A DNA stretch of 64,000 nucleotides from a virus. Below are positions 1,847 through 61,901 of this stretch, one piece after another. The position numbers were made by a program, and so were the translations under genes. The stretch lies in the IMG/VR virus record IMGVR_UViG_3300044635_002180, positions 52,216-116,215 of that record; one strand, 5' to 3'. The notes below the pieces were generated by a model that was not told the DNA's origin, did not search any database, and worked only from the letters and a program-made list of their open reading frames with translations. The first letter of the stretch is position 1; each line of letters opens with the position of its first letter.

Positions 1847-2989
1847 TTAAAAGGATATACCACCTGTATTTGATTGTTTCCACATCTCTAGCAGCATATT
1901 GCTGTTATTAACATTGAGTGATCCAAATGTAATTGATACATCATAAGCATCTGGCATGATTGCTGGTATAGAGGCATTGAGCCCCTTAATGGAAGTTTGT
2001 GGCATGTTTATATTTACATGCCTTCTATTGCCTATGAATTTAATATTCAATGATTCAAGATATCCATATTGTATATAGCAAACACCTGGCACATTAACAG
2101 TGTACATTTTTGGCATCTCAAGCAATGACTTGGTTACTCGTTGCGGGGTGTTTTGAAAAATTAACAACCAAAGAAATTGATAATTTGCACATGCTTGCTC
2201 AAATGTTTGTGTATTAAACAATGGAAAATTAAATGTTACAGATGGGCTGTTGGAATGTGCTGGATCAAACATTCTAGGTTTTTCAATGTATTGACCTGGT
2301 GCGGAAATTTTAGCAAAACCTGCAACTGTATCTTGCATTTGATTTATGCTATTTGATAGAGGATATGAAAGATCAGGCCAAGCATTTGTAATGCTGCTGA
2401 AAGCTTGATCATCTAAATACGGAAGCAAATATTTAAACTTAGTAGGTGCAAGTGAATATAAATTTTTGTAAGGCTGCATCCATAACGAACCAGGGAAGTC
2501 ATATTTAGCATTAATATCTGCTGCTTCTCGTGCACCACTATTGATTGCATTTTGAGTATCTTTTGCTAATTGAGTAGCTCCAGCTAAGCCATCTGATATA
2601 GCTCCAAGTCCTGCTTTTTTAGCTATGGTGGTTAGAAGATTAACAGAAGATTCACCTGCAGCCACTGCAGCTTCAGATGCATAGAGCAGTGCTGCAATAA
2701 CAGATGTATCCTCAACTCTATATTCTGAAATATCTCCGCGGGGAACTAATTTTTTGTTGAATCCAGCATATGCTACTGGTGTAGTAGTCCAGTCAAAATC
2801 ATCGCAAACATTTATATAACTACTTGCACCACTATTTCTAGCCAATGGTCTTGCAGCAACTGTATTGCCATTTGATAATGTTTGAGTGCGCAAAGCAGAA
2901 GAACCACCTGCGGGCATAGCCTTTACATACGGATATGGAGTGTTTCCAAATTTTTCCTGATCAGTAAGGTTGAATAATGATTGCGCCAT
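1847..2989 (-). CDS. Baseplate tail-tube cap protein (gp48-like, tentative)
   Basis: 380 aa, close to T4 gp48 (364 aa). The C-terminal third (about residues 270-375) has the alternating beta pattern of a tube-type domain (SVTFNFPLFNT, YLESLNIKFIGNRRHVNINMP, DAYDVSITFGSLNVNNSNML), the form used by gp48 and gp54 to cap the hub and start tube polymerisation. The middle segment (about 105-165) is Ala-rich and helical. A late promoter octamer lies 5 nt before the ATG. It sits between the tape measure and the gp53-like gene, as in T4-type tail clusters (29-48-54). Structural role is well supported; gp48 identity is inferred. Confidence 0.5.
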   Translation of the reverse strand: MAQSLFNLTDQEKFGNTPYPYVKAMPAGGSSALRTQTLSNGNTVAARPLARNSGASSYINVCDDFDWTTTPVAYAGFNKKLVPRGDISEYRVEDTSVIAALLYASEAAVAAGESSVNLLTTIAKKAGLGAISDGLAGATQLAKDTQNAINSGAREAADINAKYDFPGSLWMQPYKNLYSLAPTKFKYLLPYLDDQAFSSITNAWPDLSYPLSNSINQMQDTVAGFAKISAPGQYIEKPRMFDPAHSNSPSVTFNFPLFNTQTFEQACANYQFLWLLIFQNTPQRVTKSLLEMPKMYTVNVPGVCYIQYGYLESLNIKFIGNRRHVNINMPQTSIKGLNASIPAIMPDAYDVSITFGSLNVNNSNMLLEMWKQSNTGGISF

Positions 2990-2994
2990 GCATA

Positions 2995-3002
2995 TATTTA
3001 TG
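2995..3002 (-). promoter_or_regulatory. Late promoter, CATAAATA, 5 nt before ATG
   Basis: Minus strand reads CATAAATA-TATGC-ATG at 2989. T4-type late octamer; predicted transcription start at the start codon of the gp48-like gene. Confidence 0.8.
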
Positions 3003-3021
3003 TATGTAATGCAAAATCATC

Positions 3022-4920
3022 TCATGCATAACCAGCTGCTAACATTTGCTGTCTTACCTGCGTAGCAGTGTATTGCAAAGGAAATACATTATAATCTGTT
3101 GCTTGCATGTCTTTAGTTTGTTTTTGTGCAGCAGAAGAACTAAATCCAATTGAATTTACTGTTTTTTCTATTCTCAGCAATATGTCGTTTGTAATGGTTA
3201 TGGCTCTAATTTGTGCATCTGCTTTAGAATCTTGTGTCTTTTTTAAAGCTTCAAACAGACCTTTTAAGCCTTCATTATTCAATTGTGTAGCAGCTGCAAC
3301 ATTTGTTTTGTCATTAACCTTTAAATTAGGCGCTGTTTCAGCATCAGCAGCATTTGATGCTTGAGTTTCTTCAGTTGTTGAAAAGTAACCTTCAACTGAG
3401 TTCCACATTGATTTGGCCCATTCAACTGGTTTGGATACAATTTTCTTAACAAAAGATTTCATTGCTTCAATTTTAGTTGCAAGTGCGTTTTTGATGGTGC
3501 CGATAAAGTCAAACTTCTCAATTTCAAATTTCTCTGTTGTAATTGGTGTTGCAGCTTCTTGTTCTCCAGAGGTTATTAATGATGTTACCCATTCATACAC
3601 AGATGCAGCAGCATCAAATACAGCCCCTGCAGGTGATAATATGCCTTTGCCAATTAATTTGAGACCATCAACATAGTTTCCATTCTTGATCATTCCAATG
3701 CCATCAATGATGTCATGCACACCTTTGAACAAAGGCATTTTTTTAATTTTCTCCCAAATGCTTGAAAATTTTTCGCCAATATTATCAAAGAAATTAGCAA
3801 GCCCTAAACTTTTATTTTGAGCAGCTTTGTCTTTTTCTGTGTATGTAAAATCTCTGTACAGACTATAGAAGTCAGCAATTATGCCAAACCCTGGTATTGC
3901 ACCAGCTAATTCCAACAAAGTGCCAAGGTAATCGCCCTCCTTAAATTTTTCATATGCAAAATATAAATTTATTATGTCACCCAATCCAGGTACAAGTTTA
4001 AAAAGCTTTAGACCTTTTTTGAGTATATCACCAAACATGCCTCCTAGACTCTTCAAAAAAGTCTTTATAGCATCTGTTCCAGGTATGCTTTTAATTAGAT
4101 CTTTGCCCATATCAAAAACACCAGATAGACTTTTGAAAATTTTATCCTTTGCCTCCACCAATCCTTTTTTAATTGAATCAGGGAGAAGATCAAAAAGCGT
4201 TTCTGGCAATTTAAGAACTGTATCACCCATTGATTTAAGAGCTTTAAAACCTTTGTCAAAAACAAACGATATTAATGATGTTATTTTGCCCAATGTCTTT
4301 TTAACCATTTTTTCACCAAGCTTAACAGCTAATTTTCCTATTTGAGACAGTCCACTTCCTATGTCACTGCCAAAAGCCAGCAAACCTCCACCAAGCAACA
4401 GACCAAGTCCACTTAGCAGAGATGCCCAATCAAATGATTGCTTGTTATCTGCTTTTTTGTTGGAAAAGACATCAACCAAGTCTTTGATAACATCTTTGTC
4501 AATGCCTGCAATATAAACCTTCTTAGCATCATCCCTCTGAGTTAGCCTGTTGATATCTTCTTGTTCTGCTTGTTGTTTTTGTGCTTCTGCAGTCTCGTCT
4601 GAAGATTTTGTCAATACATCAAGCTTATCAAACATTTTTGTGCTTGCATCTTTTTGCTCTTTGCGTTCTTTTTCTTTATCAGATTTAAAAGCATCATTGA
4701 ATTTCTTGATTAAGTTGTCAATGCTCTTGTTGTCTAGTGAAACAATTTCACCTTGTCCTTTGGATTTGTTGTCATTGTCTTGCTGATCATCCCGGCTTAT
4801 GATGCTTGGTGCAGCTTCGTTAACAGCATTTTTTGACTGCTTGACATTGCTAATGTTACGCAGCTCATCTACAACTTCTTTTAGTTGCTTGATAAAATTA
4901 TCCAAAAATACTTGTTCCAC
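3022..4920 (-). CDS. Tape measure protein (gp29-like)
   Basis: 632 aa, near T4 gp29 (590 aa). A charged, coiled-coil-prone N-terminus (residues 1-150, rich in K/E/Q/D) is followed by a Gly-rich hydrophobic stretch (SLLSGLGLLLGGGLLAFGSD, about 168-187) and several hydrophobic helices (GLGDIINLYFAYEKF, LGTLLELAGAIPGFGIIADF), a typical tape measure profile. It lies after two small chaperone-like genes and before the baseplate cap, the usual place. The start is GTG at 4918-4920: a late promoter octamer ends exactly 5 nt upstream, the spacing seen at other late genes, and an overlapping out-of-frame ATG at 4922-4924 stops after 8 codons. Function is inferred from composition, length and position. 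Confidence 0.7.
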   Translation of the reverse strand: MEQVFLDNFIKQLKEVVDELRNISNVKQSKNAVNEAAPSIISRDDQQDNDNKSKGQGEIVSLDNKSIDNLIKKFNDAFKSDKEKERKEQKDASTKMFDKLDVLTKSSDETAEAQKQQAEQEDINRLTQRDDAKKVYIAGIDKDVIKDLVDVFSNKKADNKQSFDWASLLSGLGLLLGGGLLAFGSDIGSGLSQIGKLAVKLGEKMVKKTLGKITSLISFVFDKGFKALKSMGDTVLKLPETLFDLLPDSIKKGLVEAKDKIFKSLSGVFDMGKDLIKSIPGTDAIKTFLKSLGGMFGDILKKGLKLFKLVPGLGDIINLYFAYEKFKEGDYLGTLLELAGAIPGFGIIADFYSLYRDFTYTEKDKAAQNKSLGLANFFDNIGEKFSSIWEKIKKMPLFKGVHDIIDGIGMIKNGNYVDGLKLIGKGILSPAGAVFDAAASVYEWVTSLITSGEQEAATPITTEKFEIEKFDFIGTIKNALATKIEAMKSFVKKIVSKPVEWAKSMWNSVEGYFSTTEETQASNAADAETAPNLKVNDKTNVAAATQLNNEGLKGLFEALKKTQDSKADAQIRAITITNDILLRIEKTVNSIGFSSSAAQKQTKDMQATDYNVFPLQYTATQVRQQMLAAGYA

Positions 4921-4925
4921 TCATG

Positions 4926-4933
4926 TATTTATG
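4926..4933 (-). promoter_or_regulatory. Late promoter, CATAAATA, 5 nt before GTG
   Basis: Minus strand reads CATAAATA-CATGA-GTG at 4920. The constant 5-nt spacing selects GTG as the start. Confidence 0.8.
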
Positions 4934-4945: not shown

Positions 4946-5656
4946 TTAGAATAGTGGAGTCTGTATATCAAGATTTTTGCCGTTAAATGCTTGTTCAATT
5001 ACATCTTTTGCTTTTGTAATAAACTTTGCAACAGCATTATTGACTGATGCAGGCATTTGTTCTGCAATCTTTACATAAGAGCCAATGTCAGCAACATCAT
5101 CAAAACACACACTTTCATTTCGGATAGTTAATTTTTTAATGTGTTTAACAATTTCCAATACAAAGTAATCAGATGCAAGCTCTGAAGCACTGCGTGATGC
5201 ATTTTTGTTGCTGTTGATGAACCAATTGTTTATATCAGAATCGCGTTGCAGATCAGGCAGCTGCATCTCTACCATTATAGCTTCACCAAATGTTGCTGTA
5301 GCTTGTTGCAACTTTTCAACATCAATTGTTTTAGCGAAGGCATTTATTTCTTGAATTTGCTCTTTTGTTTCTTCTTCCTCTGCTTTAAGATTCAACAATA
5401 TAAACTCCCGATCAAATGTTGATACATCATTGCTGCTATCATCACAGCAGTTGTCTGTAATGATGCTGTTGAGTGCATTTATAATGCGAATATTATCCAA
5501 AGGGTTGTTGTTGATGTTGCCAATGATTTTTTTCTGCTGGAGCACACTAATGGGTCTGAATTTTTTTGTTTTCTTGGCCATTGGAACGTAGATATCAACA
5601 ATGGATTCATTGTTGATTGCTTCAAGATCTTTAAAAATTGCATCAAACTTATTCAT
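4946..5656 (-). CDS. Small tail/baseplate protein, possible gp26-type assembly factor
   Basis: 236 aa, acidic, no catalytic motif. The segment KKFRPISVLQQKKIIGNINN (about 31-50) resembles the conserved N-terminal motif of the T4 gp26 baseplate-hub family (polar region followed by IRPFTVKEEK...). It overlaps the upstream gene by 8 nt without its own promoter and lies directly before the tape measure, where tail assembly chaperones are usually encoded. The role as chaperone or hub assembly protein is an inference from this position and weak similarity. Confidence 0.4.
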   Translation of the reverse strand: MNKFDAIFKDLEAINNESIVDIYVPMAKKTKKFRPISVLQQKKIIGNINNNPLDNIRIINALNSIITDNCCDDSSNDVSTFDREFILLNLKAEEEETKEQIQEINAFAKTIDVEKLQQATATFGEAIMVEMQLPDLQRDSDINNWFINSNKNASRSASELASDYFVLEIVKHIKKLTIRNESVCFDDVADIGSYVKIAEQMPASVNNAVAKFITKAKDVIEQAFNGKNLDIQTPLF

Positions 5657-6503
5657 GTGTATTAAGCATACTTAGTGCATTGTTGCTGTTTTTCAATGCT
5701 TCGTTTTGTTGTGCTTGCTCCTCATTATAAAATGACATGAAGAGTTTAGCATCTGCTGGAGTTAAATTATTATAATCACTGCATGATAGATGCAGCTTTG
5801 TTAAGCAAAAGTATTTTTGTCTAAAGTAATTGAACAAATCTTCTCTAAAAATAATTTTTAATATTTCAAATATGCTTGAGTTAAAGGGGTTTATGCTGAT
5901 GGCATCAAATCCTAATGAAGTTACTTGTGGTATGAAATTTATTTTAGCATATTTTTGCTGCTCTCTACCAATATAATCAGCAAGTTTACGCAAAATATTG
6001 GCATTCACAATGTTTAACAATTTATCCTTTTGTTGAGCATTGAGATCATTGAGTAACAGCCCATTTATGCCATACAGTGAATTAATGAGTGCATTATCTG
6101 CATTTAAATGCAGCTTTGTTGGTGCATTGAACTCAAAACAAATGTTGTCAATTGTTATTGTTTGTTTTTCCACATCAACTTGATTGAGTTGATCAATTAT
6201 GCTTTCCAAATCAATGTTTATAGCAGAATTTTCTGCATTTACTAGTTTTAGTGTGCTGCTGTAACTTATGCTCTTTATTTTGCACAGTATTGCGAACTTA
6301 TCTATAATTGTCAAGTGGTTGCTTGCTAAATTTTCATTAAAGATGCAGCATTTTTGTATAATGTAATCAAAATACTTTTCTATCTCCTCATTGTTATCTT
6401 CCAACAAGAATTTTTGCAAGTTTTCATGCAATTCATTGGTGATGCTCTTTACAGAAATGATTGTTTTGCAACTTGGCAATGTTATTTTTGATGTAAATGT
6501 CAT
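5649..6503 (-). CDS. Possible baseplate hub assembly protein (gp26/gp51-like)
   Basis: 284 aa, mostly helical. The C-terminal half contains IIFREDLFNYFRQKYFCLTK followed by a Pro/Ala-rich loop and LFMSFYNEEQAQQ, a pattern typical of T4-type hub chaperones in which a helical domain ends in a polar tail. ATGA overlap at both ends shows tight coupling to its neighbours in the operon (tube-domain protein, the 236-aa protein, tape measure). Context supports a role in tail assembly; the exact T4 equivalent is not certain. Confidence 0.4.
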   Translation of the reverse strand: MTFTSKITLPSCKTIISVKSITNELHENLQKFLLEDNNEEIEKYFDYIIQKCCIFNENLASNHLTIIDKFAILCKIKSISYSSTLKLVNAENSAINIDLESIIDQLNQVDVEKQTITIDNICFEFNAPTKLHLNADNALINSLYGINGLLLNDLNAQQKDKLLNIVNANILRKLADYIGREQQKYAKINFIPQVTSLGFDAISINPFNSSIFEILKIIFREDLFNYFRQKYFCLTKLHLSCSDYNNLTPADAKLFMSFYNEEQAQQNEALKNSNNALSMLNTHE

Positions 6504-7195
6504 GTATTATTAACATTTACACTATAATTATCAAAACACCACGTGACAGATCGCATTTCAGGTGTTCCTTGATCTTCATTATACGAATATTTTTTGCCAT
6601 CCACACCAAATGGTGCGCAGTTGTAAAAATTATACACCTTTCTAATGGGCCTAAAAGCATTGTTGTCATAAGGTGCAACAGGGGTGTGCTTTTGTCGACC
6701 AAAAGATATCAATTGTATTCTAGGAACTCGTACACGCTCATTTGCATTTTGATAAGCAAAATATCCATTGTAGCTGCTAACAATTACCCAAGGACGAATT
6801 ACAAAATCAACAAAATCAGAATTTGTTTCACGAAAAGTTGTGGCAATGCTCTTGCCTGCAAATGCATCACGTGCTCCAGCAACACCAGGCTTTGTAAAGC
6901 CACCAAAATTATAGTTTCCAGCTGGAGATATATTGTATCTATCATCTGGAAGTGTTACTGAATCTACAAAAAAACATCCAACCTCAGACGTGCTCTGCAA
7001 CTGTTGCTTGGTTAAATCATCATAAGCATCAGAAACCAACCAATCATTTGTTCTTATAGCTTCAAGCTGAGCTATTTGCTGCTTTACAGTTTGAGGAAAG
7101 CCATGTATAATTAATACCCACTGTGAATTGAGTGCTAAATTATACTCGTAACGCTCGAGTAAAGTAAGATAAGATTCTCTAGGTGATTGTGCCAC
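6500..7195 (-). CDS. Tube-domain baseplate protein (gp54/gp48 type, tentative)
   Basis: 231 aa. The first part is helical (ALNSQWVLIIHGFP onwards); from about residue 75 the pattern is that of a tail tube fold: SVTLPDDRYN, FRETNSDFVDFVIRPWVIVSSYNGYFA, and the final RSVTWCFDNYSV. Comparable proteins start the inner tube at the baseplate (gp54 in T4). Start is GTG at 7193-7195: a late promoter octamer ends 5 nt upstream and no in-frame ATG follows nearby. It is followed by ATGA-coupled small genes. Fold and context are well supported, exact role is inferred. Confidence 0.5.
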   Translation of the reverse strand: MAQSPRESYLTLLERYEYNLALNSQWVLIIHGFPQTVKQQIAQLEAIRTNDWLVSDAYDDLTKQQLQSTSEVGCFFVDSVTLPDDRYNISPAGNYNFGGFTKPGVAGARDAFAGKSIATTFRETNSDFVDFVIRPWVIVSSYNGYFAYQNANERVRVPRIQLISFGRQKHTPVAPYDNNAFRPIRKVYNFYNCAPFGVDGKKYSYNEDQGTPEMRSVTWCFDNYSVNVNNT

Positions 7196-7200
7196 CTAAT

Positions 7201-7208
7201 TATTTATT
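7201..7208 (-). promoter_or_regulatory. Late promoter, AATAAATA, 5 nt before GTG
   Basis: Minus strand reads AATAAATA-ATTAG-GTG at 7195. Confidence 0.75.
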
Positions 7209-7755
7209 ATGCTGGTGCGTTCTCTTCAAAGAAGTGATAAGATATAGTCGCATCAAAGAATACTGGCTGACCTGTACCTTCTGCCATGTTGTATTGAATT
7301 TGACCCACTTGGCGAATACCTGTACCAACTAATTTAAATGTTGATATTGGCTCAAGAGCTTTGTTGAGCTGCACCAATGTAATGGTGTTGGCACGAGAAG
7401 CAATGTTGTAATCACCTGTGCTTGTTGCATCATCAAAAACGCGACGAGATTCAGCTAAAAACTTATTTCTAAGTTGGGAATCTGCATCACAATAAAAATT
7501 GAGCGTATAACCTTCAGCACCAGGGTATGTTGCTACACCTGCAATGTTGAACGGCAAACCCATGAATTTAGTCTGCACATTGGTAATGCCACGTGCAGGT
7601 AGTGTTGCTGTTCTTGCGTAAATTAATTCACTTTCATCAAAAATAGCGCCACCAGCAAATGTAATGTTGATCACACGAAAGAGGAAGTCGCGTGAAAATT
7701 CTCTTGCAAGTGCGCGATCATAAAAATTACCAATGGTTTGATTAGTCTGTGCCAT
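7207..7755 (-). CDS. Tail tube protein (gp19-like)
   Basis: 182 aa, similar in length to T4 gp19 (163 aa). The order of motifs fits the tube family: an N-terminal EFSRDFLFRVINI strand, the ARTATLPARGI loop, an internal FNIAGVATYPGAEGYTLNFYCD hairpin, the helix LRNKFLAESRRVF and final strands (FKLVGTGIRQVGQIQYNM, VFFDATISYHFF). It would form the inner tube within the sheath. It has its own strong late promoter, which suits an abundant protein. Two other tube-type proteins lie in this cluster (6500-7195, 13402-13986), so which one forms the main tube needs structural comparison; this one matches the family best. Confidence 0.65.
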   Translation of the reverse strand: MAQTNQTIGNFYDRALAREFSRDFLFRVINITFAGGAIFDESELIYARTATLPARGITNVQTKFMGLPFNIAGVATYPGAEGYTLNFYCDADSQLRNKFLAESRRVFDDATSTGDYNIASRANTITLVQLNKALEPISTFKLVGTGIRQVGQIQYNMAEGTGQPVFFDATISYHFFEENAPA

Positions 7756-7760: not shown

Positions 7761-7768
7761 TATTTATT
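7761..7768 (-). promoter_or_regulatory. Late promoter, AATAAATA, 5 nt before ATG
   Basis: Minus strand reads AATAAATA-AATGC-ATG at 7755. Confidence 0.8.
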
Positions 7769-8651: not shown

Positions 8652-8659
8652 TATTTATG
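8652..8659 (-). promoter_or_regulatory. Late promoter, CATAAATA, 5 nt before ATG
   Basis: Minus strand reads CATAAATA-ACAAG-ATG at 8646. Confidence 0.8.
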
Positions 8660-9098: not shown

Positions 9099-10872
9099 TG
9101 TGTGTATTTATATACTCAAATACCATGTGTCCGCAGTCCCAGATTCTTCTCCAACCCCGCTGCATCATAATCTGCAATTCAGTTAATTTAGCATCATAGC
9201 CCTGTTTTACAAGTTTATGTTTTTGGAAATTAGATCTGTGCATCACTGTTTTTGTATCAGTGTACCAATAAGCAGCATTTGTCGTCTTAATATGTTTAAA
9301 TCCTAATGTGGTGTAAAACGAACCATCTTTGCAGTATCTTAAATCAGCATATGTTGTTACTTTTTCAACATTGTAATTTCTTAAAAAATGTTTGAACAGT
9401 TTAGATGCTCCACCAATTACAATTGTGTTGAGTTTGCAGCAAAATCTTATGAGCTCAAATGTTTTATTTCTTGTTATTTTGCGGTTACCAAACGTCATCA
9501 TTGCAACCATTTCTCCGTTATGCATTAAAGCTAGGGCAATCTGCGAATTATCATTGCCTTGAATGTGATTTGCATTTAAAAAATCTTTTTTTTGCATTTT
9601 TGTTGCTATTATTACTTTGCAGTTGCGTGCATATATTCTACTCTGCAATGCATTTAATCTACTTCGCAACATTGACTTAACAATTTCTTGCTTGTTTACC
9701 CATTCATTTTCAAAAATTTGAACTAAGTGTATATTATTTTGCATGCATAGCTTGCGCTTATTCAAATGCTTACATTTATTGTGTTGCTCCTCGTCAATGT
9801 TGTTGGGAAAATTGGAACCAAAGCTATGCCACAACAACCCATGAAATTCAATGCCCACATTTTTTTGTGGTATAAACACATCAATTTCTAATTTCTTGCT
9901 ACTTGTTAAACCTTTGTAAGAATTGACAACTTCTAAACTACAATCTTGCTGCAAAAAGTTCGCTACTTCTATTTCCAGCCTTGATGTACCTGTAGCTACA
10001 TTGTTGCATTTAGCACAAAAAACATCTTTCCAACGAGCATTTGTTAAGCGACGAAGCAGTATTGATCCACAGGCATTACATTTGAGGTGATACTCCTGTT
10101 GCTGATGGCTATTTACATCATTTAAAACAGAAAAATTTTGTTGCTCAACAGCATTTTTTATAATTTTTAATTTTGCTTTGTTTTTGTGCTGTTGTGAGCT
10201 TGAAGCATTATATCCCCTCAAAAAATTACAGTACTTTGCTTTTATGCTTGCATCATAACAACAAACAGCTGGTTGAGTGTTGTGATATAGCAAGTAGAAG
10301 CGTTCACTCCAATTAATGCTATCAATGTCTTCGTATAAAAGGTGGTGCTGTGTGTGTTGTAGTATGCTGCAGCAGACATCAACATTTTCTTTTAATATAG
10401 CAGTGTTAATAAACGCATGCAGTCTTCCATAATTTGTCTTTATTAATCTATCCTGTATAAATTCAAAACACTCACCACACTGCTTCAATATATATTCTTT
10501 GTTTTTGTAGATGTTAATGAAGTTTTGTTTGATACTATTTTTGGAAGCTTTTAGTTTTGCTGATAATTTATGTGCGTCAACTGTTTTTAGTCTTGCCCCA
10601 TTTTGCTTGCCTGATGCAATTGCAAATCTGTGCTTATTATTTAGCCATGACAGCGGCAGATTTGTTATTGGACAAATGGGTTGTTGTGTGATGTTGTTGG
10701 TGATGCAATATATGCGCGCAGCAATGCAGGCTCTATCATCTAAAAAATTTGTTGCTTTGATTATATCATTATATAGTTGTGATTTTTTGAACCACCCCTG
10801 CCTTATTACAGCAGCATTTAATTTACCACTTTTGTTGTAGAGCTGTGTCTTAATTTCGTCACATATTTGCAT
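9052..10872 (-). CDS. VSR-like (PD-(D/E)XK) homing endonuclease, freestanding
   Basis: 606 aa from the ATG at 10870-10872, chosen because a late promoter octamer ends exactly 5 nt before it; an in-frame GTG 15 nt upstream lies inside the octamer. Two zinc-ribbon motifs (CPIC-like CPITNLP near residue 64, then CNACGSIL...CAKCNN near 270-290) precede a nuclease core: LEIDVFIPQKNVGIEFHGLL, then HLNKRKLCMQNNIHLVQIFE and ENEW. This is the arrangement of VSR-like homing endonucleases of phages. The C-terminal part (about 430-600) looks like an acetyltransferase-type or DNA-contact domain (MVAMMTFGNR, CCKLNTIVIGGASKLFKHF). It is inserted between sheath and gp4 genes, so it is read as a mobile gene. 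Confidence 0.7.
   Translation of the reverse strand: MQICDEIKTQLYNKSGKLNAAVIRQGWFKKSQLYNDIIKATNFLDDRACIAARIYCITNNITQQPICPITNLPLSWLNNKHRFAIASGKQNGARLKTVDAHKLSAKLKASKNSIKQNFINIYKNKEYILKQCGECFEFIQDRLIKTNYGRLHAFINTAILKENVDVCCSILQHTQHHLLYEDIDSINWSERFYLLYHNTQPAVCCYDASIKAKYCNFLRGYNASSSQQHKNKAKLKIIKNAVEQQNFSVLNDVNSHQQQEYHLKCNACGSILLRRLTNARWKDVFCAKCNNVATGTSRLEIEVANFLQQDCSLEVVNSYKGLTSSKKLEIDVFIPQKNVGIEFHGLLWHSFGSNFPNNIDEEQHNKCKHLNKRKLCMQNNIHLVQIFENEWVNKQEIVKSMLRSRLNALQSRIYARNCKVIIATKMQKKDFLNANHIQGNDNSQIALALMHNGEMVAMMTFGNRKITRNKTFELIRFCCKLNTIVIGGASKLFKHFLRNYNVEKVTTYADLRYCKDGSFYTTLGFKHIKTTNAAYWYTDTKTVMHRSNFQKHKLVKQGYDAKLTELQIMMQRGWRRIWDCGHMVFEYINTHNESQATIQAKFLQTC
9105..9112 (-). promoter_or_regulatory. 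Late promoter, TATAAATA, 6 nt before ATG
   Basis: Minus strand reads TATAAATA-CACACA-ATG at 9098; the promoter lies inside the 3' end of the preceding gene. Confidence 0.75.
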
Positions 10873-10877: not shown

Positions 10878-10885
10878 TATTTATC
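10878..10885 (-). promoter_or_regulatory. Late promoter, GATAAATA, 5 nt before ATG
   Basis: Minus strand reads GATAAATA-GTAAT-ATG at 10872 and decides the start of the homing endonuclease. Confidence 0.75.
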
Positions 10886-13375: not shown

Positions 13376-13383
13376 TATTTATA
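13376..13383 (-). promoter_or_regulatory. Late promoter, TATAAATA, 5 nt before ATG
   Basis: Minus strand reads TATAAATA-CAAGC-ATG at 13370; full T4 consensus octamer before the sheath gene. Confidence 0.85.
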
Positions 13384-13991: not shown

Positions 13992-13999
13992 TATTTATA
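13992..13999 (-). promoter_or_regulatory. Late promoter, TATAAATA, 5 nt before ATG
   Basis: Minus strand reads TATAAATA-GCAAC-ATG at 13986; lies inside the end of the terminase gene. Confidence 0.85.
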
Positions 14000-16770: not shown

Positions 16771-16778
16771 TATTTACA
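16771..16778 (-). promoter_or_regulatory. Weak late promoter candidate, TGTAAATA, 7 nt before terminase ATG
   Basis: Minus strand reads TGTAAATA-AACATGC-ATG at 16763. One of only two cases with 7-nt spacing and off consensus at position 2. Confidence 0.45.
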
Positions 16779-16785: not shown

Positions 16786-16793
16786 CATAAATA
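16786..16793 (+). promoter_or_regulatory. Late promoter, CATAAATA, 5 nt before ATG
   Basis: Plus strand reads CATAAATA-ATCGC-ATG at 16799; back to back with the terminase promoter, 7 nt apart. Confidence 0.8.
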
Positions 16794-20591: not shown

Positions 20592-20741
20592 ATGAAATTT
20601 AATGAAATTGTGGAGTTCTTTCTGGAAAAGAATGGCAACAAGCACCGGCGCAAAAGAAAAAAAGCAAAAGATGAAAATGTTGAGCAATATGATCACGCTA
20701 TAACACTGGAGCATGCGCACAAACAAAAGAGAAGCACCTAA
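20592..20741 (+). CDS. Small basic protein, 49 aa
   Basis: Short reading frame supported by a late promoter octamer exactly 5 nt before its ATG and by fitting snugly between neighbours: its TAA overlaps the promoter of the next gene. The product starts MKFNEIVEFFLEKNG, then has a basic cluster NKHRRKRKKAKD (about 16-27) and a His/Lys-rich tail. It could bind DNA or be a small virion protein; nothing further can be said. Confidence 0.6.
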   Translation: MKFNEIVEFFLEKNGNKHRRKRKKAKDENVEQYDHAITLEHAHKQKRST

Positions 20742-20744
20742 ATA
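20737..20744 (+). promoter_or_regulatory. Late promoter, CCTAAATA, 6 nt before ATG
   Basis: Plus strand reads CCTAAATA-ACAACA-ATG at 20751. Confidence 0.65.
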
Positions 20745-23720: not shown

Positions 23721-24370
23721 TGAGCACAACAACAGTTTATTTAACAGGCAACGCATTATCTGCAGATTATGTTAATTTTTATGGCCCCTTTTTAATCAAG
23801 GGCACTTCAACTGTAGGTTTTAATTTGTATGGCATCAATGAAGAAACAAATCCAGTTGCAAACATTCATGGTTATTTTGGGGATGGTGCAGAGTATAAAG
23901 ATGTTTTAAACTTGCACATTGATTTATCTTCTTTGGATACCATTGAGATTGCTGAATCTGGAAAAATTCGCTGCATCGCACAAAATTTTGAGCACACTTA
24001 TGAAAAAAATCAAACCACTTTTGTGGATTATTTGACTGCTTCATTTGTTCTCACATACACCTCTCAGCGACGCGGCATACACAATGTTAAACTAATTCAT
24101 GTAAAAAATTCATATTATGATGACGTTAAACAGATACATTTAAATGCAACGCAAATGCTGCCTATTTCTTCAAATGATTTGGTAGCTGTTGCTTCAGATG
24201 ATTCTGGCAATGTGTTTCACATGTACATCAGTAGAACACAGCTGGAATCAGCTGATGTTACACTAACTACTCCTACAACAGGCGTATTCTTAGGCCCACG
24301 CACCATAAAAAACTGCTATATACTTCAAGCACAGCAAGGTGGTGTTATTGTTCCTTTACTGTCTGCATAA
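23720..24370 (+). CDS. Tail-associated protein, unidentified
   Basis: 216 aa, predominantly beta, no catalytic motif or signal peptide. Recognisable features are only short strands such as NIHGYFGDGAEYKDVLNLHIDLS and RRGIHNVKLIHVKNSYYDDV. Its ATG shares one base with the stop of the large tail protein (TAATG), so the two are co-translated; it probably forms a complex with that protein or links it to the collar-domain fibre that follows. Confidence 0.55.
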   Translation: MSTTTVYLTGNALSADYVNFYGPFLIKGTSTVGFNLYGINEETNPVANIHGYFGDGAEYKDVLNLHIDLSSLDTIEIAESGKIRCIAQNFEHTYEKNQTTFVDYLTASFVLTYTSQRRGIHNVKLIHVKNSYYDDVKQIHLNATQMLPISSNDLVAVASDDSGNVFHMYISRTQLESADVTLTTPTTGVFLGPRTIKNCYILQAQQGGVIVPLLSA

Positions 24371-24373
24371 ATA
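24366..24373 (+). promoter_or_regulatory. Late promoter, CATAAATA, 6 nt before ATG
   Basis: Plus strand reads CATAAATA-ACACAT-ATG at 24380; contains the stop codon of the preceding gene. Confidence 0.75.
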
Positions 24374-25766: not shown

Positions 25767-25774
25767 CTTAAATA
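25767..25774 (+). promoter_or_regulatory. Late promoter, CTTAAATA, 5 nt before ATG
   Basis: Plus strand reads CTTAAATA-TAAGC-ATG at 25780. Confidence 0.7.
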
Positions 25775-28700: not shown

Positions 28701-29058
28701 CTTGCAGCAGCAAAGAGTCTATTTTGCAAGCAATGTCACAATAAGTTATCCGCGAATTTATAGTGCAGCATTGCAAGATAATGATATTAAATTGCTTTGC
28801 ATGCAAAAAACCAAAGTACAAGATTTAAATTTTCACTTGCCTTGTGGACAACGCAATAATTTAGATAAAATTAAGCAGATGTTTGCATGGGGAACACCTG
28901 GCTTCAAGAGCAGCAACATAAAAATAACTGTCAAAAACAGCAGCATAACATCTGATGCTACTAAACAAGCATTAAAAACTCAAATTTTGCAGGAAATTAC
29001 TGATGTGCTGCCCATCAATACAAATGTAATTGATATTGAATTTGCAGAATTTGATTAA
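25780..29058 (+). CDS. Large tail adhesin with LamG-like fold and inserted beta-propeller
   Basis: 1092 aa. Residues about 540-585 (FAVFKQYETINDASQMTISFWLDSLDW) are the start of a concanavalin/LamG-like domain, and residues about 900-990 (MHHFALRIDAKQGNASFFVDGILKQ, ISYPRIYSAALQDNDI) are its end. Between them (about 600-880) lie repeated strand units of a propeller (GTVYKLQADGTLYDKK, RNLYVLHNNYKISKFDADRV). The N-terminal 500 residues are a mixed baseplate-like region (DGLPGPQL, MDGQYLCTWLSGSNWVDRYY) and the last 60 residues (TKQALKTQILQEITDVLPIN) form a helical anchor. Carbohydrate binding during attachment is the likely role; the assignment is from fold pattern. Confidence 0.6.
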   Translation: MQVYNFATHTRSLSCTYQTDVNFSLKGSKNTNQQGINIFQHDALKNARDARINNYSSLVLSNDVLASDSFELQSIETPVKRILSTYLAVSITNELNEKTRYLYFNNERETTSDKFNEYTSHQMLPLADIVEESQRFFNVELIDDQFARINYKYDNRNYYLASNANHDLLFASNALYKDFANLNFNFVDETTFFYVLDEPSNTLFLLKPLPNNVTNGLGLSAADSTKLQLLSAVNSANYYAFNTFNFKIRDNIDLIAKKLNTSQATYNVENIDDLDVLDTTQDLTNNILFASQYNAASTRDIPTKPLILKNQHSLMSHVDECSYTNLLNGLPGPQLRDYTTIITGNEQEKGNDSIAINYVVYANDYVAKPDAYTIFKTSSDLYPYHQLNINDSTLVRDGSLGGNNPYTSDQLFMQKNTAQGMDGQYLCTWLSGSNWVDRYYNNNKMSPMDAAKAVNAVYGTYESYVEQLLESNDVNYDFFDKKSDFVFEPNKEYFYYRMGSKRVDEQINNYSNHLLLSSLQWKTSNNQNIAASNDYKCDGNSFAVFKQYETINDASQMTISFWLDSLDWSKINAHEIVGNVTNAGFGIIKDPLVTPLIMVQSSSAIHILNSDFVEITKTAVSGASFLTRSDALDAFQGISNNGTVYKLQADGTLYDKKNFNESIIATTYANDVIYKLHGNGYDVSAFNTITEQTSTYTVDFNSQSILYVDGALRGFAGTKTLAYDDNAVMFLYNQNQLVYKNYATNDQYVAFKTLSSSTDVGFIADFALDDERNLYVLHNNYKISKFDADRVLQYTISMQSLLSSASATNIAIDLCYEYKDDVKNKSLIVVANDSKQKLSFAKIATTGAIQTFVQTNITKSAAGVFNLTNAQYLQQIYADRRDAFDFVLKLPNYYNSHDFTSVKYTFNASDFNSGMHHFALRIDAKQGNASFFVDGILKQNVYIQAAKFMHLPLLQSSICFGATHFSNGNTLANFLQQQRVYFASNVTISYPRIYSAALQDNDIKLLCMQKTKVQDLNFHLPCGQRNNLDKIKQMFAWGTPGFKSSNIKITVKNSSITSDATKQALKTQILQEITDVLPINTNVIDIEFAEFD

Positions 29059-29061
29059 ATA
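29054..29061 (+). promoter_or_regulatory. Late promoter, ATTAAATA, 5 nt before GTG
   Basis: Plus strand reads ATTAAATA-GTTGA-GTG at 29067; the stop codon of the preceding gene lies inside the octamer. It supports a GTG start. Confidence 0.7.
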
Positions 29062-30963: not shown

Positions 30964-30971
30964 TATAAATA
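30964..30971 (+). promoter_or_regulatory. Late promoter, TATAAATA, 6 nt before ATG
   Basis: Plus strand reads TATAAATA-ACTACA-ATG at 30978. Confidence 0.8.
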
Positions 30972-33894: not shown

Positions 33895-33902
33895 ATTAAA
33901 TA
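33895..33902 (+). promoter_or_regulatory. Late promoter, ATTAAATA, 5 nt before ATG
   Basis: Plus strand reads ATTAAATA-CAGGC-ATG at 33908. Confidence 0.7.
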
Positions 33903-38748: not shown

Positions 38749-38756
38749 GGTAAATA
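38749..38756 (+). promoter_or_regulatory. Late promoter, GGTAAATA, 6 nt before ATG
   Basis: Plus strand reads GGTAAATA-TTTTAA-ATG at 38763, so the glycosyltransferase pair has its own late promoter. Confidence 0.6.
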
Positions 38757-42000: not shown

Positions 42001-42008
42001 TATTTAAT
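42001..42008 (-). promoter_or_regulatory. Late promoter, ATTAAATA, 6 nt before ATG
   Basis: Minus strand reads ATTAAATA-ATTACA-ATG at 41994. Confidence 0.65.
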
Positions 42009-42015: not shown

Positions 42016-42023
42016 CATAAATA
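42016..42023 (+). promoter_or_regulatory. Late promoter, CATAAATA, 5 nt before ATG
   Basis: Plus strand reads CATAAATA-AAAGC-ATG at 42029; back to back with the promoter at 42001-42008. Confidence 0.8.
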
Positions 42024-42556: not shown

Positions 42557-42564
42557 TATAAATA
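42557..42564 (+). promoter_or_regulatory. Late promoter, TATAAATA, 5 nt before ATG
   Basis: Plus strand reads TATAAATA-TGTAT-ATG at 42570; selects the third of three closely spaced in-frame candidates. Confidence 0.75.
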
Positions 42565-44453: not shown

Positions 44454-44482
44454 AATATACAATGAATTTTACTGTTTTTCAA
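44454..44482 (-). promoter_or_regulatory. Sigma70-like early promoter, leaderless arrangement
   Basis: Minus strand: TTGAAA, 17 nt, TATATT, then 5 nt (GTGGC) and ATG of primase at 44448. The -35 lies inside the end of the 58-aa gene. Confidence 0.75.
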
Positions 44483-44651: not shown

Positions 44652-44659
44652 TATTTAGT
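44652..44659 (-). promoter_or_regulatory. Late promoter candidate, ACTAAATA, 6 nt before ATG
   Basis: Minus strand reads ACTAAATA-CTGTAT-ATG at 44645; includes the stop codon of the RNase H gene. Confidence 0.6.
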
Positions 44660-50403: not shown

Positions 50404-50411
50404 TATTTATT
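50404..50411 (-). promoter_or_regulatory. Late promoter, AATAAATA, 5 nt before ATG
   Basis: Minus strand reads AATAAATA-AAAAA-ATG at 50398. Confidence 0.65.
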
Positions 50412-52421: not shown

Positions 52422-52730
52422 TCACCGATCATCCATTTCTTGTTTGTTTTTCTCCATCCACATTGCGCATAAAATATTCCAAACTGCAGCAGCAGCATGA
52501 TCTTCTGATGCATCTTTCATAAACCAAGCCATCAAATGGCGCTGAGCACTGTTGTATAATTCTGATAATTGCATGCCGCATTTCCAATTATGTGCTCCAA
52601 ACTTAGCTGCACCATCTCTGTATCTATCTAATACTCGTAGCAATTCATCATGCGGAATTAATGCCATTTGAGGTTTACCAGCATCATCATTTCTTACAGC
52701 CCCAGTTGCAAATTTGCGTATTTCGTTCAT
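52422..52730 (-). CDS. dATP/dGTP diphosphohydrolase-type protein (DUF5664 family)
   Basis: 102 aa from the ATG at 52728-52730; a longer frame (52790) runs through the divergent promoter. It matches the DUF5664/MazG-like pattern: ETGAVR-like ATGAVRNDDAGKPQMALIPH, LDRYRDGAAKFGAHNWKCGM, and the helix AQRHLMAWFMKDASEDHAAAAVWN. Members of this family hydrolyse dATP or dGTP and take part in phage nucleotide metabolism. Its ATG lies inside the promoter octamer of the divergent plus-strand gene at 52741. Confidence 0.7.
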   Translation of the reverse strand: MNEIRKFATGAVRNDDAGKPQMALIPHDELLRVLDRYRDGAAKFGAHNWKCGMQLSELYNSAQRHLMAWFMKDASEDHAAAAVWNILCAMWMEKNKQEMDDR

Positions 52731-52735
52731 AAATA
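52728..52735 (+). promoter_or_regulatory. Late promoter, CATAAATA, 5 nt before ATG
   Basis: Plus strand reads CATAAATA-GATGT-ATG at 52741. The first three bases are also the start codon complement of the divergent DUF5664 gene. Confidence 0.75.
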
Positions 52736-54538: not shown

Positions 54539-54546
54539 AATAAATA
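54539..54546 (+). promoter_or_regulatory. Late promoter, AATAAATA, 5 nt before ATG
   Basis: Plus strand reads AATAAATA-TTAGC-ATG at 54552. Confidence 0.75.
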
Positions 54547-55559: not shown

Positions 55560-56290
55560 GCTATGTCTTTGCAATTATTTGCTGCATAAACATCATCTAA
55601 GAAAGCTTGTTGCTTGTATTTTACTGGGTCTTTGTAGCCAGCATCAATGAATCCTTTGATTCTCAAGCTGCTGCTCGCTGAAGTTGCATCTGATAATTCT
55701 TCACCAGAATAACAGGTGTATGTGTGCTCAAATGGTACATTCAATTCAACACCCATGTTAACAATTGCACACTTGTCACTGTTGATCAAAGGAGTCATTA
55801 CAGCAATTCTGTGCTCTCTATTAAGATCACACAAGTTGTTGAGAGTTGGCATAAATTCATCAGATGCATCCCAATACCCGGCAAGAGAATCAACTGCAGT
55901 AGCTCCATGCCACACTTCCACTGCACCAACTGCTTCTGCATGAGACAAGGCAATGCTTAAAAATATAAGATTGCGAAATGGAACGTAACTCTTGGGCTGT
56001 GCTTCACCAGCAATTTTTCTCACATCAGGAGTTTCAATTGCATCATTTGTTAATGATGAAGTGGGTGCAAGTTGTCTGATAAATGATGCATCAACAACTT
56101 TATAGAAAATGTTTTTATTAATTTTCTTTGCATCATTGCAGAGATATTTGGCACATTCAATCTCTCTGCTGTGTCGTTGATTGTAATCAAAAATCAAACA
56201 ATGAACTTCATCAAAGCATTTTGCAGCCTGGTACAGCAAAACTGCACTATCCATTCCACCACTAACAGGTACAACTACTCTAGATTTCAT
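55547..56290 (-). CDS. queC: QueC-like 7-cyano-7-deazaguanine synthase with altered zinc site
   Basis: 247 aa. The ATP-binding loop SGGMDS (10-15), YNQRHSREIECAKYL, YVPFRNLIFLSIALSHAEAV, and GATAVDSLAGYWDASDEFM are the QueC signature. QueC makes preQ0 from CDG, a precursor of queuosine and of 7-deazaguanine DNA modifications used by phages against restriction. The C-terminal zinc site is unusual: the first Cys remains (TYTCYSG), but the CGxCxxC part is replaced by D-A-T-S-A-S-S before SLRIKGF. Either zinc is not needed or the enzyme does a related reaction. Other pathway genes (queD, queE, folE, dpdA) are not in the window. Confidence 0.85.
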   Translation of the reverse strand: MKSRVVVPVSGGMDSAVLLYQAAKCFDEVHCLIFDYNQRHSREIECAKYLCNDAKKINKNIFYKVVDASFIRQLAPTSSLTNDAIETPDVRKIAGEAQPKSYVPFRNLIFLSIALSHAEAVGAVEVWHGATAVDSLAGYWDASDEFMPTLNNLCDLNREHRIAVMTPLINSDKCAIVNMGVELNVPFEHTYTCYSGEELSDATSASSSLRIKGFIDAGYKDPVKYKQQAFLDDVYAANNCKDIAQNK

Positions 56291-58129: not shown

Positions 58130-59127
58130 TCAACCAAAAAGATCAAATAAATCGGAATACATCTGTTCTGTTGGTTTATGTGCAGGCCACTTAACTGCAG
58201 TATAAAATCTTTCCACCACGGAGAATACAATCTTTTCAAACATTTTCTCGTATGCAGGCTTGAATATGCCATGAAATTCAGTTGGGTAGTAGTATTTAAA
58301 TGCAATGGTCTCTACACCATACTTGTTGGGTGTAGCAATGTACATCCATCTGATTTTATCACCTGACTGAATAGCTTCATATTTTGATATGATGTCAAGC
58401 TTTTTGAGCAATACATTATAGTTGTGAGCAGACTTCACATGCACCGGAGCACCTTTGGGCAATGAAAACTCTTTGGCCTTGCTTGCATGCTTGTCAAGAT
58501 CTTTGATGCCCATGACATATGCTACTTCTTCTGGCTTGAGTGCTTTGAACACATCATATGCTTCATTAACAACAGCATTGGTTTTGATTCTATCGCGTGT
58601 ATCAAGCATTGTTTCAATGATTTTTTTAACGTATGGTTTGATGGCTTTTGGCATAGAAGTTCTCACCACCTCCACACCAACATACTTCCACTTATCACAC
58701 TCAATTCCTTCATCATCCACCACATGTGCAACATATCGCTTCTTTTCTAAAAATAAGCCTTTGTCAATGATGGACTCTCTCTTGAAGACAATTCTAGGAT
58801 CAAGTGAGTTTAGCTCATCTTTGAGCTTGGTATTAATTTGATTGTTTATATAAACATTTAGACCGTCAATAATTTCATGCACCTTGCCATTGACTTTGTT
58901 ATTAATCAACAAAGGTTCATTGTATTTTTTGAGCAGTGGCTCAATGCACAAATACACCGAATCGGTATCACCTGCTACAGCAATATCAGGAAAATTATTA
59001 GTACCTAAAACAGAAGCAGTATATTCTCTTGCTTGAGTTCGAGCAGTCTTAATGATGTACTGACCAGTCAGTGTGATGGATGATGCAATATCATCATCAC
59101 CCAGCGGCGCATTTTTATTGCCCATGT
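58130..59127 (-). CDS. 43: DNA polymerase gp43, C-terminal part (exon after group I intron)
   Basis: Codes palm and thumb of the family B polymerase: MGNKNAPLGDDDIASSITLT follows motif B, motif C is AVAGDTDSVYLC with both catalytic Asp, then KKRYVAHVVDDEGI and the thumb. The frame has no long coding upstream of 59125 and begins directly at the proposed intron end: the two bases 59127-59126 complete a codon whose first base (T, 59368) lies before the intron. After splicing the sequence reads NSVYG-Y-MGNKNAP, which matches NSxYGxxGN of family B enzymes. An ATG at 59125 could give an unspliced fragment without motif B. Confidence 0.85.
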
Positions 59128-59543: not shown

Positions 59544-59819
59544 ATGGTCAAGACATTTGAAGTTTAAGCATCTTATAGACGGGCACAATATTATGTTACT
59601 CTGCTTGATTGTGATACGGGGAGTGAGCATTCTAAATTTCTTATAGAATGGATAAAAAAATATAGCTACGCGAAAGATGGTATTATGGATAGAATCCGCT
59701 CAGCTGATTTTAAAACTCCGGTAAGCATGCGAAAATGCAAGAAGAATATTGTCGTTTTAAAAGCTGTAAAGAGGAAGCCTACTGAAGAAGAGTATCTGCA
59801 ATTACTATCACTATTTTAA
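59544..59819 (+). pseudogene. Inserted plus-strand gene with in-frame TAA at codon 8
   Basis: From the ATG the frame reads MVKTFEV, TAA, then stays open for 83 codons (ASYRRAQYYVTLLDCDTGSE ... KAVKRKPTEEEYLQLLSLF) to a stop at 59817-59819. The product would be a basic protein of about 91 aa with no clear family, perhaps an intron- or homing-related factor. It lies between two polymerase fragments and converges with the end of the second one. Either a nonsense mutation or a base error inactivates the start, or translation begins after codon 8. Confidence 0.5.
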
Positions 59820-61073
59820 CTGATCTTCAATATTCTTCAATTCCTTTTTAAGCTTCATCATTTCCTTGCGAACAGCAACACGCTCTTTGTAATATTCATC
59901 TACAATCTCTGGTAGAATTCCTTTGACTTTTTGGCTAAACAAAACCTTGGCTTTGGTTATGGCAATTTTTTCCTGATTTACAAATTGTGCAAACTTAGCC
60001 AGTGGCAAGTTAAAAACCTGACCATTGATGTGTTTGATGGTTACACTTTTATCATCTGTATCAATGATGTTACCTACCTTTGTCTCTGGAGACAAATTGA
60101 GACTAATCATGATGTTGGGGTACAGTGAATTAGCATCAAAAGATACAACATTGCTTTGAAAGCCCTCCATGGGCTCTGCAACAAATGCACCCGGATTTTT
60201 ATCACCTTCACCATCACGAACAAATGTAGGCAAGAATTGTGATCTTTGACGAGCACGAATGGCAGCAGTTCCTGTGATTGTAGACAAGGTGCTCATTGCA
60301 TTTTCCATGGTGGTCAGGCCCATGTAAGCCAACATTCTCAGCAGTGGTACATACTGCAATTTTAAATCCATCTTCACAAGCAGTGCAACGTCTTGCAAGT
60401 TATAATCTACAAACAATTGCCAATCTTCTTTTGCTAAGCTTGCAAGATTGGTATTGCCATAATCAACCTTTCTCTCACCCAGTTCAAGTTCTGCAATGTA
60501 ATCGAGTTTATAGCTCTCGCGGTTTGTAAAGCTAAAACGCTTGTAAATATCAATGTAATCAACGCATGAAACTCCGTCAATGTACCAGCGGATTTGCGGC
60601 TTGCCAAATATGCCGCTGTTGAGAGTTCTACAATACACTCTACCAACAGGTGAAAGCTTTGATGAATACTCTTCACTCAAAATATTATTGATTCTGTTGA
60701 TGATGTATGGAATATCAAACCCTGCACTATTCCAACCTGTCAACAAGTCACATTCCAAGCTGCTGAAGAACTCTATAAAATTCACCAACAGTTGGCGCTC
60801 TGTTGCACAATGAACAAACTTCAAGTCACTTCTGTTGTGTTTATAATCAGTTGTACCCCAAGAGAAAAACTGATTGGTCAAACTGTCATGAATGGTAATA
60901 ATGTTGATGGGATGCTTAGCATATTCAGCTGCAGGAAACTCTGTTTGCTGAACATAACAACTGTTATCATAATTAACCCACTGCTGTTTCTCCTCATCCC
61001 ACACTTCATATTCTTCTCGCATATTTTTATTACACGCGAAATCACCCAATTTGATATACTGATACTGTTCCAT
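59811..61073 (-). CDS. 43: DNA polymerase gp43, exonuclease and palm part (second fragment)
   Basis: 420 aa. Contains Exo II (LTGWNSAGFDIPYIINRINN), Exo III (LFVDYNLQDVALLVKMD) and polymerase motif A (VVSFDANSLYPNIMISLNLS), and ends in the fingers helix (RKEMMKLKKELKNIEDQLK) with TAG at 59811. Motif B follows only 330 nt later in the next fragment. At the N-terminus, FPAAEYAKHPINIITIHDSL continues the exonuclease fold begun in the fragment at 61903. Start is ATG 5 nt after the HNH gene stop; no promoter octamer is seen, so it is read with the HNH gene. Confidence 0.9.
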   Translation of the reverse strand: MEQYQYIKLGDFACNKNMREEYEVWDEEKQQWVNYDNSCYVQQTEFPAAEYAKHPINIITIHDSLTNQFFSWGTTDYKHNRSDLKFVHCATERQLLVNFIEFFSSLECDLLTGWNSAGFDIPYIINRINNILSEEYSSKLSPVGRVYCRTLNSGIFGKPQIRWYIDGVSCVDYIDIYKRFSFTNRESYKLDYIAELELGERKVDYGNTNLASLAKEDWQLFVDYNLQDVALLVKMDLKLQYVPLLRMLAYMGLTTMENAMSTLSTITGTAAIRARQRSQFLPTFVRDGEGDKNPGAFVAEPMEGFQSNVVSFDANSLYPNIMISLNLSPETKVGNIIDTDDKSVTIKHINGQVFNLPLAKFAQFVNQEKIAITKAKVLFSQKVKGILPEIVDEYYKERVAVRKEMMKLKKELKNIEDQLK

Positions 61074-61075
61074 AG

Positions 61076-61888
61076 TTATTTGTTGCGCAGGTTTAAAATT
61101 CTTGTTCGTACTTTTGATGATTTTGAATTAATATAGTTTTCAAACTCTTGATCAGACATACACTTAATACGAACTTTCATAATTGACTGTTGCCGTGTCG
61201 CTTTTCCCTTTTTATTATTTGATATATTAATACTTCTCACGGCATGATCAACACATGTTGAATGTAAACTCTTGTTAAGTCGTTGTTGCTTTTCAGCAAC
61301 ATCTAATCCGTTTATATATTCTTTTATTTTTTTAGATCGTTTTAAATTAGATTCTTCACTTTGAATACATCCGCGCCTTGATTGAAAAAAACATTCACGA
61401 CTACACATTGTAGCATATCTTGTTTTCACACGCCTACCACAGTTGTTTCCACATAAAGGCATAGTCATTAATCTCTGCATCTTATTGTGACTGCCACGGA
61501 TTTTTAATTTTTCTGATACTACAGTTTTAATATAATCACTTTTCATAGGGTGATTTTTTGAAAACAACTCTCTAGCACACTTGAATAGCTTTGCATTTAT
61601 TTTTCGCTTATCACTATTATGTGTACACATTCTATTAAATGCAGCTGATAATTTCATAGCTCTTGCAGTGTAAGTAACATCCGCTTCTGCAAGTTTTTGA
61701 TAACCCACTGCTAGGAGGTGATGTAAAACAAAATGCTCTTTTGCTGTAACTTTAACAATATTATCAGCTATATCATTACCACCAAGACACTTGGGTAATA
61801 CATGGTGTCTCTCACAATAGATGCTTTCATCTAAGCATCTGTTTTGGCAATTTATAATAATTTTATCATATACTTTTAAGTAGTTCAT
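61076..61888 (-). CDS. HNH homing endonuclease inside the polymerase gene
   Basis: 270 aa. The HNH motif is YCERHHVLPKCLGGNDIADN followed by IVKVTAKEHFVLHHLL (H-H ... N ... H). A zinc-like Cys cluster (CGNNCGRRV ... CSRECFF) and a basic C-terminus bind DNA. It fills the space between the first and second polymerase fragments and has its own late promoter 5 nt before the ATG, so it is a freestanding homing gene. It has no space for a group I intron core, so the polymerase here is probably split, not spliced, as reported for Aeromonas T4-like phages with 43A/43B. Confidence 0.85.
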   Translation of the reverse strand: MNYLKVYDKIIINCQNRCLDESIYCERHHVLPKCLGGNDIADNIVKVTAKEHFVLHHLLAVGYQKLAEADVTYTARAMKLSAAFNRMCTHNSDKRKINAKLFKCARELFSKNHPMKSDYIKTVVSEKLKIRGSHNKMQRLMTMPLCGNNCGRRVKTRYATMCSRECFFQSRRGCIQSEESNLKRSKKIKEYINGLDVAEKQQRLNKSLHSTCVDHAVRSINISNNKKGKATRQQSIMKVRIKCMSDQEFENYINSKSSKVRTRILNLRNK

Positions 61889-61893
61889 AGGAG

Positions 61894-61901
61894 TATTTAT
61901 C
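61894..61901 (-). promoter_or_regulatory. Late promoter, GATAAATA, 5 nt before ATG
   Basis: Minus strand reads GATAAATA-CTCCT-ATG at 61888, directly behind the stop codon of polymerase fragment 1. Confidence 0.75.

Follow-up and report, generated by a model that had tools for sequence, protein, structure and literature searches.

T4-type late promoters placed for predicted leaderless late messages in a clade of uncultured T4-like phages

Described late promoters and the phage analysed

Late expression in bacteriophage T4 is the classic example of a leadered mRNA with a ribosome site. T4 late promoters (TATAAATA, used with gp55, gp33 and gp45) consist of an octamer with a weak first position, need no -35 element and precede virion genes on both strands; most boxes are 14-35 nt upstream of the start codon, and Shine-Dalgarno (SD) sites are found at 28 of 51 genes, compared to 2 in control positions. 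The octamer spans -13 to -6 relative to the RNA start (PMC1524935; PMC2988020). Late promoters of cyanophages and methylophages (NATAAATA; S-PM2, P-SSM2, B23 and Melnitz) share this consensus (PMC2984593) and serve a T4-like gene set; their boxes lie ~18-30 nt upstream, and the messages are leadered. Leaderless mRNAs, which bear a 5'-terminal AUG without an SD site, are already known from phages as well as bacteria (lambda cI; Mycobacterium and Deinococcus; PMC9031893), and a remark in PMC5312081 holds that phage transcripts are often leaderless. In the open-access papers searched, leaderless late transcription was not described for any T4-like phage.

The DNA analysed here, hereafter the window, comprises 64,000 nt (bases 52216-116215) of a 116,215-base IMG/VR virus record (G000), which is a fragment of an uncultured T4-like phage. 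It shares with T4 the late octamer and its weak first position, the placement before virion genes on both strands, the dispensable -35 element and, in its relatives, a gp55-type sigma factor. It differs from T4, and likewise from the cyanophages and methylophages, in that its boxes lie 5-6 nt before the start codon, and SD sites are lacking.

T4-like genes in the record or window include those for terminase, tail sheath, tail tube, DNA polymerase B (in pieces), UvsX, gp32, gp41, gp61, baseplate wedge gp6, gp25 and a homologue of the clamp loader gp44. Portal, gp23 and gp21 genes were found in relatives; the T4 core gene set is present across the record and its relatives together. Several window genes are without known function. 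Protein identity to cultured phages was low (best terminase 37%, UvsX ~33%), and megablast retrieved no close cultured relative. Searches of IMG/VR with UvsX and sheath yielded ~100 related loci. Four large relatives of 204, 225, 171 and 197 kb (G001-G004, respectively) were analysed in full. The portal gene of G000 is not on the fragment. In a portal-protein tree, the four relatives formed a separate, fully supported deep branch outside T4, the cyanophages, the SAR11 phage HTVC008M and phiM9; RM378 sat on a very long branch and was too divergent for placement. The clade may possibly correspond to the Far-T4 phages (PMC4360716, PMC7198788). A UvsX scan of bacterial genome contigs for a host carrying relatives returned one distant match only.

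Several gene arrangements were observed in passing. The family B DNA polymerase is split over separate ORFs at 58130-59125 and 59811-61073, its C-terminal and middle parts lying ~700 nt apart. The large terminase encoded at 13995-16763 is 922 aa long, ~300 aa longer than T4 gp17, and is represented by two ORFs in G001; an insertion or intein is possible. A homing-endonuclease-like gene (9052-10872; PHROG 3339) has a late box of its own, overlaps the next gene and has a counterpart of 63% identity in G001, with no match in G002-G004. A QueC-like gene (queuosine-type base synthesis) lies at 55547-56290, with a glutamine amidotransferase-like gene nearby (53081-53740). Outside the window, at G000 5277-8165, a nicotinamide phosphoribosyltransferase gene adjoins one for PRPP synthetase, forming a NAD salvage pair. 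G002 carries a phage tmRNA gene (L141:18613-19056) and an array of 23 tRNA genes (L142), none of which were found in G000.

Spacing of late boxes and start codons

The first-pass annotation had counted 20 late boxes ending 5 nt, and 8 ending 6 nt, before a start codon. Its nine example coordinates were all right and the spacing pattern stood, while the totals did not: measured from the end of TAAATA, which occurs 79 times on the two strands of the window, to the ATG or GTG of called genes, 19 boxes lie at 5 nt and 7 at 6 nt, with a few at 7 nt. If boxes and ATG/GTG codons that open 80 codons or more were placed independently of each other, 0.73 pairs spaced by 5-6 nt would be expected in the window; 25 were observed. 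The whole-genome, start-anchored motif search that the annotation had suggested as a check gave the same sharp peak, with 26 boxes at 5 nt and 7 at 6 nt in the 116-kb record (33 in total versus 1.2 expected). Of all pairs of hexamer and distance upstream of ORFs, TAAATA at 5 nt was the most frequent. Other permutations of TAAATA gave no independent peak, ATAAAT (17) being an overlapping shift of the same box. The observed spacing is thus confirmed as real. Among the 5-nt sites, the one at 20592 precedes a weak ORF (49 aa), and that at 17051 is internal to, and in frame with, the gene at 16799.

On the minus strand, eight boxes end 5 nt before an ATG. Two of these are AATAAATA, namely 7761..7768, preceding the tail tube gene (7207-7755), where the 5-nt spacing recurs in 4/4 relatives at 39-79% aa identity, and 50404..50411, before a gene with a DHH phosphoesterase match (49508-50398). 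CATAAATA is found at 2995..3002 (gene 1847-2989) and at 8652..8659, before a gene with PHROG endolysin and tail-lysozyme matches (7792-8646), and GATAAATA precedes both the homing-endonuclease-like gene 9052-10872 (box 10878..10885) and gene 61076-61888 (box 61894..61901). The tail sheath gene (10962-13370) and gene 13402-13986 are preceded by TATAAATA at 13376..13383 and 13992..13999, respectively; for the sheath gene the box also lies at 5 nt in G003 and G004, and the N-termini align from residue 1. Two further minus-strand boxes end 5 nt before a GTG, CATAAATA at 4926..4933 (gene 3022-4920) and AATAAATA at 7201..7208 (gene 6500-7195), the latter spacing being found also in G001 and G002 (57% aa identity). 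At 6 nt before an ATG lie TATAAATA at 9105..9112 (gene 8655-9098), ACTAAATA at 44652..44659 (gene 44469-44645, 58 aa) and ATTAAATA at 42001..42008 (gene 41584-41994). The box of the large terminase gene (13995-16763), TGTAAATA at 16771..16778, is 7 nt from its ATG.

Plus-strand boxes followed the same spacing. CATAAATA ends 5 nt before the ATG of gene 16799-17593 (box 16786..16793), of gene 52741-53094 (52728..52735) and of gene 42029-42523, whose box at 42016..42023 forms a divergent pair with that at 42001..42008 and keeps its 5 nt in 4/4 relatives. The same distance to ATG separates CTTAAATA at 25767..25774 from gene 25780-29058, ATTAAATA at 33895..33902 from gene 33908-36493, TATAAATA at 42557..42564 from gene 42570-43421 and AATAAATA at 54539..54546 from gene 54552-55559. 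One box, ATTAAATA at 29054..29061, overlaps the upstream stop codon and lies 5 nt before the GTG of gene 29067-30956. Four more lie 6 nt before an ATG: CCTAAATA at 20737..20744 (gene 20751-23720; 6 nt in 4/4 relatives), CATAAATA at 24366..24373 (gene 24380-25720), TATAAATA at 30964..30971 (the tail-fibre-like gene 30978-32549) and GGTAAATA at 38749..38756 (gene 38763-39602).

The distribution of boxes over operons is that of promoters, not of ribosome sites. In the structural region, 18/21 operon heads or genes after gaps of >4 nt had a box, compared to 1/16 tightly coupled genes, in line with the earlier claim that downstream genes are coupled by overlap; in the early region a box was found at 5/58 genes, and virion genes were over-represented among genes with a box. 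That annotation had also noted a lack of SD sites before these genes. The absence was upheld, while its specificity to late genes was not, as SD sites are lacking genome-wide: across the 116-kb record, SD-like tetramers preceded 2/37 box genes versus 0-1 in control positions, and 6/106 non-box genes versus 6-9.

The arrangement is not unique to G000. When the related loci were pooled, the box count was 150 at 5 nt and 101 at 6 nt over a low, uneven background; the loci are related and not independent. The four large relatives had 40-42 boxes each at the 5-nt distance, and SD sites were not in excess in any of them; at 5-6 nt they had 62, 57, 57 and 51 boxes versus 1.6-2.5 expected, counts that are likewise not independent across relatives. 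A box at 5-7 nt is retained in 46 orthologue pairs, in 31 of them at the same distance, although their upstream DNA is 44% identical.

Control phages lacked the peak. T4, P-SSM2, B23 and Melnitz had none at 5-6 nt, their boxes lying ~12-36 nt upstream, as leadered messages require, and none was found at 5 nt in RM378 or phiM9. A whole-record count of the pattern in 22 cultured phages was near background except in the pelagiphages HTVC008M and, weakly, Mosig. These Pelagibacter myophages share the 5-nt box at a subset of genes and differ in that its use is not systematic. In HTVC008M (NC_020484.1), ~12 annotated CDS, with starts chosen by independent annotators, begin exactly 5 nt after TAAATA; they include the tape measure, DNA end protector, head closure, tail tube cap and baseplate wedge genes. 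In the HTVC008M record these CDS start at positions 6280, 7562, 11972, 16007-, 18916-, 18943, 19456, 31132, 49760, 75559, 75830 and 142360. Its other late genes are SD-leadered, with SD sites at 26/50 genes in a 50-kb stretch. HTVC008M looks like a mixed or intermediate state, and the 5-nt arrangement is common to the environmental clade plus this gene subset.

Predicted RNA starts and competing explanations

We propose that NNTAAATA is a late promoter of the T4 type, to which a gp55-type sigma factor would direct the host RNA polymerase. A gp55 profile (PHROG 234) matched in 14/15 larger relatives with E values of 6e-24 to 2e-29, and weakly in one. In G000 itself, two PHROG profiles and a home-made profile gave no gp55 match. 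Contig L022, which is collinear with the right end of G000 at 80-87% DNA identity, has its gp55 homologue ~2.4 kb beyond the point where G000 ends; the gene was very probably cut off by the contig end. Of other candidates, PF20680 proved wrong as the gp55 family. For gp55-like frames at G010:50279-50710 and G011:8090-8512, the search reported two in-frame TAA codons, for which upstream extension or recoding is possible.

With the octamer at -13 to -6 as in T4, +1 would fall on the sixth base after the box, which at 5-nt sites is the initial A or G of the start codon. The sequence around the predicted start agrees with this geometry. In the 191 sites at 5 nt, the start codon was preceded by C or T in 88% and by A in 4%, whereas at 6-nt sites (n=69), where the preceding base is base 6, it was A in 59% and C in 0% (Fisher p ~4e-22 for the difference, orthologues not being independent). 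Such dependence of the -1 base on box distance is expected of a fixed RNA start, and not of a translation signal. Base 6 was a purine in 83% of 7-nt sites, and was A in 72% of leadered boxes of T4, cyanophages, HTVC008M and Melnitz (n=50), where it belongs to no start codon. Start codons at 5-nt sites were ATG in 164, GTG in 27 (14%) and TTG in 1; a requirement for a purine as the first base would account for the dominance of ATG and GTG. In E. coli, leaderless GUG is a poor start, whereas some actinobacteria use it better (PMC9031893). Base 5 showed no richness in pyrimidines at 6-nt sites, and the precise start may therefore shift by one base.

Transcription would accordingly begin at the A or G of the start codon at 5-nt sites, and 1-2 bases before it at 6- and 7-nt sites. 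Late messages would be leaderless: 70S ribosomes would probably initiate the first gene at a 5'-terminal AUG or GUG, and overlap coupling would serve the downstream genes of late operons. Taken together, the distance peak, its absence from controls, its conservation, the initiator signature, the gp55 of the lineage and the operon placement lend support at the sequence level to the leaderless reading put forward in the first-pass annotation. We regard it as highly likely that these T4-type late promoters are placed for leaderless late messages; the positions of the RNA 5' ends are predicted from box geometry and initiator bases, and how ribosomes enter these messages is inferred.

Other explanations account for less of this evidence. 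An artefact of AT-rich sequence or of start calling might be suspected in a window of ~63% A+T in which TAAATA is common; such an artefact is vanishingly improbable given the 25 observed versus 0.73 expected co-occurrences, a >20-fold excess in four more genomes, and the lack of an independent peak for same-letter hexamers or of any peak in control phages of similar A+T. Were the listed starts wrong, with translation from a downstream ATG, the messages would instead have short leaders. Start calling is never certain, and many genes do contain further in-frame downstream ATGs. However, a start caller blind to the motif reproduced the distance peak, the annotators of HTVC008M independently picked the same 5-nt starts, and box-keeping orthologues, mostly of 30-70% identity, gave alignments that start within residues 1 to 6 and show 46% identity across residues 2-16. 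We therefore consider misplaced starts highly improbable.

The case that TAAATA is a translation signal (e.g., an A/U-rich ribosome contact in an SD-less host) and that the messages have ordinary leaders draws on the missing SD sites and on the finding that, in Bacteroidota lacking SD sites, initiation is favoured by A-rich start regions (PMC6847099). The SD-less Flavobacterium johnsoniae has mostly leadered messages (mean 33 nt; PMC6847099), and SD absence alone does not imply leaderless mRNA. Most non-coupled early genes and coupled structural genes nevertheless lack the box, which moreover fits the gp55 consensus down to its weak first position; the base before the start shifts with spacing, as a fixed RNA start predicts; and phi14:2, a Bacteroidota phage that is not T4-like, shows no such peak, indicating that the spacing is no general feature of gene starts in Bacteroidota phages. 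A translation signal is thus very unlikely. Phage-encoded bS21 or IF3, either of which could alter initiation, was not found in 15 records. Closer to the leaderless reading is the proposal of nearly leaderless messages with leaders of 1-5 nt, the host selecting start sites slightly upstream relative to E. coli. Ends have been mapped only for T4 in E. coli, the start site chosen can shift by one or two bases, and the 6- and 7-nt sites already imply leaders of 1-2 nt; we hold this proposal to be unlikely, as the 5-nt sites display a pyrimidine at -1 and a purine at +1 at exactly the position predicted from T4.

Putative early promoters and wider significance

Genes without a late box appeared to follow a similar rule. 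The -10 hexamer of sigma70 promoters spans -12 to -7, and a spacing of 6 nt therefore puts +1 on the start codon. Among operon heads lacking a late box in G000-G004 (n=331), -10-like hexamers ended 5 nt before the start in 29 cases, 6 nt in 32 and 7 nt in 30, versus ~6 at other distances, and ~70% of these hexamers carried TTGNNN at a 16-18 nt spacer. A pyrimidine preceded the start in 26/29 sites at 5 nt and 24/32 at 6 nt. Control phages had no such peak of -10 hexamers before starts. Support in G000 alone is modest, and the case rests on the clade, with examples (TTGA N17 TATAAT, 5-7 nt before ATG) in G001-G004 (L128-L169) and at G000:18750 and G000:6743. In the window, a candidate sigma70-type early promoter with class-level support from the clade, TTGAAA-N17-TATATT at 44454..44482 on the minus strand, lies 5 nt before the ATG of the primase gene (43414-44448). 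Early messages with sigma70-type promoters thus look as though they, too, may be leaderless. The restriction to late genes in the first-pass annotation was too narrow for the clade, in which sigma70-type promoters appear to follow the same rule.

In a run of small genes, mainly in G004 and G003, AGGAAC was observed a few nt upstream of a TATAAT that lies 6 nt before ATG. GGAAC-TATAAT is a candidate middle-promoter class, with too few cases outside G004 and G003 for a claim. The promoters found were of the TTGA-N17-TATAAT type, and the Bacteroidota-type -7 promoter TAnnTTTG gave no positional peak. Both results weakened the candidate of a Bacteroidota host, which the missing SD sites and the Far-T4 literature had brought up.

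Leaderless messages would, on this evidence, be the general expression mode of the phage group, matched to a host that translates them well. It is likely, with somewhat less confidence than for the late promoters, that sigma70-type early and gp55-type late promoters (possibly also GGAAC-TATAAT middle promoters) put the RNA start on the start codon throughout this widespread clade, operon-leading genes being read from a 5'-terminal AUG or GUG in a host adapted to leaderless translation. Unlike lambda cI or the messages of Mycobacterium and Deinococcus, leaderless expression would then apply to an entire promoter class, apparently the sigma70-type class as well, in T4-like phages. If true, this would be, to judge from the literature searched, the first T4-like system in which leaderless messages are systematic. 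The start-codon rule improves annotation in many uncultured genomes, and the promoters hint at the kind of host, namely a bacterium that uses TTGA/TATAAT promoters and translates leaderless messages efficiently. Since cultured HTVC008M carries the arrangement, the idea is testable now. More broadly, the clade would represent a natural experiment on the gain and loss of 5' leaders, with the pelagiphages as apparent intermediates.
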